From NCBI GenBank assembly GCA_020055845.1, contig JAGVIV010000118.1:1-43420 (forward strand): a stretch of 43,420 nt of DNA, read 5' to 3'. Source of the DNA: Betaproteobacteria bacterium (lineage in GTDB: Bacteria; Pseudomonadota; Gammaproteobacteria; Burkholderiales; Gallionellaceae). Each line of letters opens with the position of its first letter. Position 1 is the first letter of the stretch. The position numbers and the translations under genes are program-made. A model generated the notes under the pieces. The model was not told where the DNA came from and made no database searches. It was given only the letters and a program-made list of their open reading frames with translations. This document shows, piece by piece, positions 6,963 through 38,710 of this stretch.

Positions 6963-7083
6963 AAACCATTCACCACAGAGACACCGAGACACGGAGAAAA
7001 ACGAAGCAAAACAAAAAACCAATCCGATAACGATTGTGGTTTGCTTTTGATTTACTCTGTGTCTCGGTATCTCTGTGGTGGGA
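6963..7083. repeat. MITE-like palindromic element with CACAGAGA-unit arms
   Basis: Left arm TTCACCACAGAGACACCGAGACACGGAGA (6969-6997); right arm ACTCTGTGTCTCGGTATCTCTGTGGTG (7054-7080) is its imperfect reverse complement. Confidence 0.8.
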
Positions 7084-7900: not shown

Positions 7901-9388
7901 ATGCTGTCTCCCATCACCGAACAAGAATTTCACGCGCTCGCAGCGCAAGGCTACAACCGCATCCCGCTGGTCACTGAGACTTTTGCCGATCTCGACACGC
8001 CGCTGTCGCTGTATCTCAAACTCGCCAACAAACCTTTTTCCTATCTGCTGGAATCAGTGCAGGGCGGCGAGCGTTTCGGCCGCTACTCCTTCATCGGCCT
8101 GCCCGCTGACACGCGCATCACAGTGCGCGGCACGCAGGTCACGCTGACCACACCCGCAGGCGAGACCACCGAGGAAGCTGCCAATCCGCTGGATTACATC
8201 GAGAACTATCAGGCGCAGTTCAAAGTCGCACCGCTGTCGGGCTTGCCGCGCTTCACCGGCGGACTCGCGGGCTATTTCGGCTACGACACCGTGCGCTACA
8301 TCGAGCCGCGCCTCGCCAAGACGGTGAAAAAAGATGTGATCGGCACGCCGGATATTTTGCTGATGCTCACCGAGCAGCTCGCAGTGATCGACAATCTTTC
8401 CGGCAAACTCACTTTCATCGTGTATGCCGACCCCGCACAGCCCGAGGCCTACGCGCGGGCCAAGCAACGCCTCGACGCGCTGCTGCGCGCGCTGCGCCAA
8501 CCGGTGAAGATCCCCGAGGCGCCGCAGTTACGCGGCTTCGAGGCGAAATCGGAATTCGGTGAAGATGCGTTTAAACACGCGGTAGAAACTGCCAAGCAGT
8601 ACATCTTCGACGGCGACATCATGCAGGTAGTATTGGCGCAGCGCATGGTGCAACCTTTCGCTGCCTCGCCGCTGTCACTGTATCGCGCGCTGCGCAGCAT
8701 CAATCCCTCGCCCTATATGTTTTATTACGACATGGGCGACCACCATGTGGTCGGTTCCTCGCCGGAAATATTGGCGCGACTGGAAGGCGACACCGTCACC
8801 GTGCGCCCCATCGCCGGAACGCGTCCGCGCGGAAAAACGCCGCAACAGGATGCCGCACTTGCCGAGGAGCTGCTGGCCGACCCGAAAGAGCTGGCCGAAC
8901 ATCTGATGCTGATCGACCTCGGGCGCAACGACATCGGCCGCGTGGCGCAAAACGGCACGGTGAAACTCACTGATAAAATGGTGATCGAGCGTTACTCGCA
9001 TGTGATGCACATCGTCTCCAATGTTGAAGCACAACTCAAACCTCAGCTCACCGCCATGGATGTGCTCAAAGCCACCTTCCCGGCGGGCACGGTGAGCGGC
9101 GCGGCGAAAGTGCGCGCCATGGAAATCATCGACGAACTCGAACCCAGCAAGCGCGGCATCTACGCGGGGGCGGTGGGCTACCTCGCCTTCAACGGCGATA
9201 TGGATGTAGCCATCGCGCTGCGCACCGCCGTGGTGAAAAACGAAACGCTGTACGTGCAGGCTGGCGCAGGCATCGTGGCCGACTCGGTGCCGGACAGCGA
9301 ATGGATGGAAACGCAAAACAAAGCGCGCGCCGTGCTGCGCGCGGCAGAGATGGTGCTGGACGGCCTGGATGCGAAGGTGCATCGATGA
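7901..9388 (+). CDS. trpE: Anthranilate synthase component I
   Basis: [62 protein letters not shown] motifs. Confidence 0.97.
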
Positions 9389-9804
9389 ACGTCCAAACCA
9401 TTCACCACAGAGACACAGAGACACAGAGAGAAACATCTAGAGATTCACTGACTGAAACTGTGATTGGTGCTGCAATTGAGGTTCACCGAACGCTAGGACC
9501 GGGCTTGCTGGAATCGGCTTACGAGGAATGCCTGTGCTACGAATTGGAATGCCGCAATCTGAAATTCGCGCGACAGCTTGCACTGCCCATCCATTACAAA
9601 GCCATTACGCTCGATTGCGCCTATCGCATGGACGTCGTTGTAGAAAATCTACTTATCCTTGAGCTAAAAGCCGTGGATAAACTATTACCTATCCACGATG
9701 CTCAATTGCTGACCTATCTCAGGTTGAGCGGTTTAACAACCGGCCTGCTGATGAACTTCAATGTCCCTGTCCTCAAGGATGGCCTGAAAAGGATGATGTT
9801 ATGA
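9385..9804 (+). CDS. GxxExxY family protein (PDDEXK_3-like)
   Basis: In-frame ATG at 9385 overlaps trpE stop (ATGA); [33 protein letters not shown] contains [34 protein letters not shown] core. Confidence 0.93.
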
Positions 9805-9848
9805 CTCCGCTTTTCTCTGTGTCTCTGTGTCTCTGTGGTGAAAGTTTT
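9394..9848 (+). mobile_element. Candidate mobile element: GxxExxY gene bounded by inverted repeats
   Basis: Perfect 29-bp inverted repeats TTCACCACAGAGACACAGAGACACAGAGA at 9401-9429 and 9814-9842, flanking the gene body and lying between trpE and trpG. Confidence 0.55.
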
Positions 9849-9865: not shown

Positions 9866-10435
9866 ATGCTGCTAATGATCGACAACTACGACTCCTTCAC
9901 TTACAACCTTGTGCAGTATTTCGCGGAACTTGGCGCGGAGGTGCAGGTGTACCGCAACGACGAAATCACGATGGAGCAGATTGAGAAACTGAATCCGCAG
10001 CATCTGGTGGTTTCGCCCGGCCCGTGCACACCGAACGAAGCGGGTATCTCGGTCGCTGCGATCAAACATTTCGCCGGCAAGATCCCGCTGCTGGGTGTGT
10101 GCCTCGGCCACCAGAGCATCGGCCAGGCCTTCGGCGGCAAGATCATTCACGCCAAGACGCTGATGCACGGCAAGACCTCGCAGATTCACCACCATAGCAC
10201 CAGCGTGTTTACCGGCCTGCCCAGCCCGTTCACCGCGACGCGTTACCACTCGCTGGTAATCGAACGCGAGACAATTCCCGATTGTCTGGAAATCACCGCG
10301 TGGACGGACGACGGCGAGATCATGGGCGTGCGCCACAAGACGCTGGCGGTGCACGGTGTGCAGTTCCATCCCGAGTCCATTCTTACCGAACACGGGCACG
10401 ACATGCTGAAAAACTTTCTGGAGGGCAAGCCATGA
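9866..10435 (+). CDS. trpG: Anthranilate synthase glutamine amidotransferase component
   Basis: [52 protein letters not shown]. Confidence 0.97.
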
Positions 10436-38589: not shown

Positions 38590-38710
38590 ATCGCTTGGCT
38601 GTATCGCGAATCCGCCACCCCGGCTTTTCTGGGTCTCGGTGGTGCAATTGAAATTTTGGGGTTTATGTGAACGCGGTGTTTCTCGCGTATTAAGAACTAA
38701 CGCGTAGGAC

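Follow-up and report, generated by a model that had tools for sequence, protein, structure and literature searches.

The window, the whole 43,420-nucleotide stretch of a Gallionellaceae contig that was analysed here, contains a short gene enclosed by a pair of inverted repeats, hereafter called arms (Table 1). The original prediction described it as a GxxExxY/PDDEXK_3-type gene, bracketed by perfect 29-bp inverted repeats and located between trpE and trpG, and each of these elements was confirmed. The product carries the GxxExxY motif, matches PF13366 and passes the curated threshold of TIGR04256 (150.6 bits, cut-off 35). The arm sequence TTCACCACAGAGACACAGAGACACAGAGA is exact on both strands, and the expected count of such an exact 29-bp pair in 100 dinucleotide shuffles of the window was 0. 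Beyond this perfect core, the pairing extends to 38 nt per arm at 92% complementarity.

Table 1. Positions of the GxxExxY unit, its neighbors and a related doublet in the window
Feature	Position	Strand	Basis or remark
trpE (anthranilate synthase component I)	7901..9388	+	TIGR00564 5e-169; sequence
GxxExxY / PDDEXK_3 ORF, 139 aa	9385..9804	+	TIGR04256 2.1e-44; PF13366 1.1e-42; AlphaFold2 pLDDT 92.8
GxxExxY domain within ORF	about 9448-9801	+	ORF part 9385-9447 contains left arm
Left inverted arm	9395..9432	+	perfect core 9401-9429; head CACCAC, then 3x CACAGAGA
Right inverted arm	9811..9848	-	perfect core 9814-9842
trpG (anthranilate synthase component II)	9866..10435	+	TIGR00566; junction comparison
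Gene-less doublet, same arm family, rpe-gph gap	6969..7080	.	absent with interior from G003, G005

The ATG of the GxxExxY reading frame overlaps the trpE stop codon in the sequence ATGA. Because this is the sole ATG ahead of the domain, the left arm falls inside the reading frame as drawn and would be translated as the N-terminal part of the protein; with no second ATG available, this start is to be taken as provisional. Comparison of junctions showed that the trpG start codon and a Shine-Dalgarno-like GGAGG are retained after insertion. An Rfam search of this site matched no known RNA element. The gene-less doublet in the rpe-gph gap, which the original prediction did not list, forms a single long hairpin when folded as DNA (z = -8.9). 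A lone, weak arm-like match at 38627-38644 on the minus strand (3 mismatches in 18) lacks a partner and is probably a remnant or a chance occurrence.

The unit had been read as an insertion into the trp cluster, a view that would suffer if all relatives carried the gene at this junction by vertical inheritance. They do not. The trpE-trpG unit is common to the host genome (G000), G003 and, at a contig end, G007, whereas two congeners, G004 and G005, and several further members of the family have an empty junction, with a gap of about 12-15 nt that includes the trpG Shine-Dalgarno sequence. Such empty junctions, found in no fewer than two congeners and elsewhere in the family, support the insertion reading. 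Trees of trpE and trpG do not resolve the branching around G000, G003, G004 and G005, and loss or recombination in G004 and G005 is a possible source of the empty junction. The original prediction had also called for a search for target duplications; none could be read at the empty trpE-trpG or rpe-gph sites, since even the nearest relatives share no more than about 80-90% identity. No movement of the repeats was observed. At rpe-gph the doublet is missing from G003 and G005 together with its interior, which indicates that the interior is part of the DNA that was gained or lost and not pre-existing host sequence.

G000, G003, G004 and G007 have many further doublets in common by descent, and 12 of 24 ortholog doublet pairs have interiors that align well (z above 5). 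At others, such as L032/L154, L076/L139 and L056/L130(/L163), flanks are 85-95% and arms 85-100% identical, and the interiors have no detectable similarity. Interior exchange, fast decay and independent hits at one site are all possible sources of this pattern; on sequence comparison, it suggests replacement of the interior or repeated insertion at the same site.

The arms are not confined to the window. The host assembly (2.79 Mb in 343 contigs) is 89% complete with 7.3% contamination, so that counts from this draft are approximate. A 20-nt arm sequence, searched with up to 3 mismatches, gave 91 matches, compared with 0 for the reversed pattern. These resolve into 50 gene-less doublets and the gene-bearing one, with the left arm always facing the right arm and with an end consensus of AAAACC(A)TTCACCACAGAGACACAGAGACACAGAGAAAACCAAA and its mirror image. 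One TIGR04256 gene was detected in the genome. About 50 gene-less doublets with the same arms around a single gene are what would be expected from the resemblance to RAYT/REP arrangements that had been noted at the locus, and this part of the original prediction is strengthened accordingly. The doublets fold as single hairpins (z about -8.9) and are mostly intergenic, since by a crude test 30% of their midpoints fall in long open reading frames, compared with 84% of random points.

Interiors of these doublets, after trimming 36 nt per side, range from 0 to 187 nt (median about 47). They are not copies of one common sequence, being mutually unrelated except for nested copies of two other REP-like repeat families. 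Nor do they appear to be decayed GxxExxY genes: when the 50 interiors were searched by tblastn with every GxxExxY protein, the best E was 0.03. Among the doublets that were read, GxxExxY was the only gene found inside. The two nested families are palindromic and contain ATGAAACTACTAGCCATTCGACTAAGGCTGGC and CACCCGCAAGGGGTAGGCCGTGGTTGTA, respectively; they occur at L048, L058, L059 and L078 and at L047, L051, L061 and L068, and both break the TCTCTG stretch of the arm, as though it were a target.

To place the locus in a wider setting, GxxExxY loci were gathered from 60 relatives, from a sample of 299 genomes of the phylum, and from 80 named loci across prokaryotes. Arms were called from the best inverted repeat between the 220-bp flanks, with a score of at least 14, and the controls were 1136 windows of matching size taken from other parts of these loci. 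Inverted arms were found at 114 of 142 GxxExxY loci (80%), compared with 12 of the 1136 control windows (1%), and the proportion held at 93 of 118 once proteins at least 75% alike were removed. The association between gene and arms is thus far above the chance level that would have counted against it; 28 of the 142 genes lack a clear arm pair. We found no description of it in open-access PMC full text or in family libraries.

The arms share an internal structure. Two or more units of the form CRCVVAD (the word is roughly CRCRRAK) are present in 106 of the 114 arms, compared with 2.6% of shuffled arms. There are two to five units per arm, most commonly three, at a spacing of 8-10 nt, and their reading direction is inward, starting from the outer end, in 97 of the 106 arms. 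Variants include CACAGAG, CACGGAG, CACGAAG, CGCAGAG, CGCAAAG and CRCAGAT, among others. The sampled loci cover more than 15 phyla, and groups with iterated-word arms include Pseudomonadota, Planctomycetota, Acidobacteriota, Chloroflexota, Verrucomicrobiota, Bacteroidota and Cyanobacteriota. GxxExxY itself is present in 38 of the 299 sampled genomes of the phylum and in archaea, where one of two loci has an arm pair, in a weaker form.

We then asked how arm type relates to gene type by counting three arm types (CACAGAG, CACGAAA and CRCAGATT) in the same 60 relatives. CACAGAG arms number 36 in G000, 26 in G003 and 13 in G007, all of which hold the CACAGAG gene type; they also occur in two genomes in which no matching gene was detected, G004 (17) and G013 (20; 75% complete). 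CACGAAA arms are found in G005 (37), G007 (29) and G003 (8, with gene fragments only), and also in G033 (26) and G028 (12). G033, which is 99% complete and in which no TIGR04256 gene was detected, therefore holds an orphan repeat population. CRCAGATT arms number 69 in G014, 63 in G005 and 24 in G004, all with the CRCAGATT gene type, and 7 or fewer in the remaining relatives, including G058, which has a single arm and itself carries this gene type. Arm type matches gene type in Mann-Whitney tests that ignore kinship (p = 1.5e-5 for CACAGAG, 9e-7 for CACGAAA and 5e-6 for CRCAGATT) and in within-genus permutations (p = 0.02-0.04 for each of the three). Among named genomes of other phyla, extra CACGGAG arms beyond the locus were present in 5 of 7 with the CACGGAG gene type, as opposed to 2 of 17 with other types (p = 0.009). 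The dispersed copies in each genome tend to match its GxxExxY gene type.

The arms at the gene itself behave in a similar way. The last base of the arm unit changes twice on the protein tree, compared with a shuffled mean of 16.4; this, together with the presence of different types in one genus, indicates that arm type follows the protein and not the host. Physical linkage of the gene to its arms means that co-inheritance accounts for part of the agreement between arm type and protein clade, and the dispersed copies are stronger evidence for a type match than the arms at the locus. Orphan populations, as in G033, G004 and G013, indicate that repeats can persist after loss of the gene or can come from elsewhere.

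An AlphaFold2 model of the window protein was obtained at high confidence (pLDDT 92.8, pTM 0.82). Its nearest solved folds in Foldseek are Cas4 (4ic1, 4r5q), the LHK and lambda exonucleases, the AdnAB nuclease domain and Hjc. All top matches are PD-(D/E)XK nucleases, with weak E-values (best 7.5e-3) and a probability of at least 0.9 for several, and on the model we are confident in assigning GxxExxY to this fold. No relative of solved structure was found by sequence search. The active-site D, E-x-K and Q are conserved, the nuclease residues varying little or not at all, and the G, E and Y of the GxxExxY motif are invariant in alignment A1. The genes are mostly single-copy, and in three ortholog pairs dN/dS is about 0.05-0.08, with synonymous sites near saturation. 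Such low ratios indicate that the gene is kept by selection as a protein, and it is probably kept as a nuclease. GxxExxY has no PADLOC match that would mark it as a defence gene, and a phage origin was set aside on finding neither a PHROGs match nor a phage record with a relative. Relatives occur in eight plasmid records, all below 60% identity.

GxxExxY is not the only small gene found between iterated inverted arms. TIGR02436 genes (23S rRNA intervening-sequence type), which encode a four-helix bundle, are so placed at 17 of 23 loci (inverted-repeat score of at least 14), and differ from GxxExxY in both protein fold and arm word. Their words are TAGGCAG, GTGAGTAG, GGCGAATG and GGCTTA, and iterated arms were noted at L296, L297, L299, L305, L309, L310, L313 and L316. 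The CRCVVAD motif is found in 0 of 18 TIGR02436 arms and the TIGR02436 word list is matched by 1 of 114 GxxExxY arms, although only the CRCVVAD side is an independent test, as the word list was drawn up after seeing the arms. With almost no overlap in motif, each class of arm goes with one protein family, and TIGR02436 with its arms is possibly a second, parallel repeat system.

We think it reasonably probable that GxxExxY and its arms form a miniature two-part repeat system resembling REPIN/RAYT, in which a PD-(D/E)XK protein takes the role of the HUH transposase. The features observed for it are its anatomy, dispersal, insertion polymorphism, motif, match between clade and gene type, fold and purifying selection; from these we infer DNA binding, cleavage, mobilisation in trans and a route by which interiors arise or change. 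GxxExxY, as a minimal nuclease, would recognise the iterated CRCRRAK arms, probably with its subunits on successive arm units or on a hairpin/cruciform of the paired arms. It would then cut or nick at the arms, and repair or replication would copy the arm-bounded DNA into new intergenic sites. The arm-gene-arm unit would be the source element, located in the host at the trpE-trpG junction with both reading frames left intact, and the gene-less doublets would stand to it as REPINs stand to RAYTs, being derived from it and non-autonomous. Recognition of the arms is supported, at the level of sequence, by the arm-type counts, the extra CACGGAG copies, the last base of the unit on the protein tree and the contrast with TIGR02436. 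The modelled fold and its residues point to cutting, and the polymorphism and matched copy numbers are consistent with spreading by GxxExxY. Weighing against the proposal are the orphan repeat populations, the 28 genes with no clear arm pair, the linkage of gene and arms, the weak Foldseek E-values, and the fact that neither movement nor a target duplication was seen.

The same data can be read in other ways. GxxExxY could be a domesticated DNA-binding protein whose arms serve as operators or hairpin terminators in regulation or chromosome structure, their spread being old or otherwise driven. Strong purifying selection on mostly single-copy genes, the retention of many orthologous doublets across species and the intergenic placement of doublets would fit such a role. 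We nonetheless consider it unlikely, because the nuclease residues show next to no variation, congeners differ in their insertions, and the arm populations of close relatives differ in step with gene type. It is less probable again that a different enzyme moves the repeats as a mobile hairpin family in their own right, with GxxExxY as cargo between two arms. The orphan populations in G033, G004 and G013 and the similar placement of TIGR02436 are what one would expect of cargo, but one motif is found around one protein family across more than 15 phyla, the TIGR02436 arms use another word with next to no crossover between classes, and GxxExxY is the sole gene found inside the doublets read in the host. 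The least probable reading, that GxxExxY processes repeats without spreading them, trimming or resolving cruciforms to protect the chromosome with replacement of interiors as a side effect, draws on the strong arm hairpins, a fold near Hjc and Cas4, and the several orthologous doublets that keep arms and flanks around unalignable interiors, but leaves new insertions and the tracking of gene type by repeat number unexplained, and many interiors are conserved normally.

The reading of GxxExxY and its arms as a two-part repeat system bears on a widespread family for which we know of no function, and whose protein is, to our knowledge, unrelated to any enzyme known to spread such repeats. The tie to a defined, iterated DNA word provides a testable substrate, and the link to GxxExxY provides an origin for a class of dispersed intergenic repeats in many phyla. 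Some repeats of this type fall inside predicted proteins, as HHRDTETQR-like N-termini. If the nuclease does spread the repeats, bacteria would propagate repeats by means of a PD-(D/E)XK core and not, as expected, a transposase, and TIGR02436 would point to a second route of the non-transposase kind. More tentatively, and with the balance of our judgement still against it, prokaryotes may have a general class of repeat system that relies on a small protein other than a transposase to spread inverted doublets of three iterated words. GxxExxY (PD-(D/E)XK, CRCRRAK arms) and TIGR02436 (four-helix bundle, TAGGCAG/GTGAGTAG-type arms) would be two independent members, with a mechanism unlike DDE, HUH, serine or tyrosine transposition.

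Several known systems invite comparison. In its predicted fold and D...E-x-K...Q active site GxxExxY resembles Cas4, lambda-type exonucleases and Hjc. It differs in consisting of a core alone, about 118 residues long, in whose conserved columns no cysteine cluster was noted, and in lying here outside CRISPR, recombination and resolvase operons. Like MITEs, the doublets are short, gene-less inverted-repeat elements related to a gene-bearing copy. MITEs, however, are deletion derivatives of IS elements, whereas the doublet interiors are unrelated between copies, the unit has no DDE transposase, and no target duplication was seen.

The closest parallel is with REPINs, which are inverted REP doublets with a spacer, thought to be moved in trans by RAYT (PMC3116915; PMC8266576). 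GxxExxY is not itself a RAYT. RAYTs are HUH tyrosine transposases, and when an HUH enzyme was looked for in the doublet, the enclosed gene proved to be of the PF13366/TIGR04256 family, with its PD-(D/E)XK fold; a search of the arms for a GTAG-tagged palindromic REP (20-50 nt) returned iterated CRCRRAK words instead. The GxxExxY arm consists of three iterated 7-nt words under an ACC head; a single arm forms no hairpin, and the two arms pair with each other. The gene, moreover, lies inside its doublet, unlike RAYT genes, which lie beside their repeats. In other respects the likeness to REPIN/RAYT systems (TnpA-REP, REPtron) is extensive. Both usually have one gene copy with its own repeats close by (PMC3116915, PMC8266576), and both have many gene-less inverted doublets, mainly intergenic and with variable linkers. 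In both, the repeat type matches the protein, and more than one independent type per genome is possible. One mark of a REPtron is a set of inverted doublets scattered through the genome and agreeing in type with a gene that is usually single-copy, and this pattern was found for GxxExxY.
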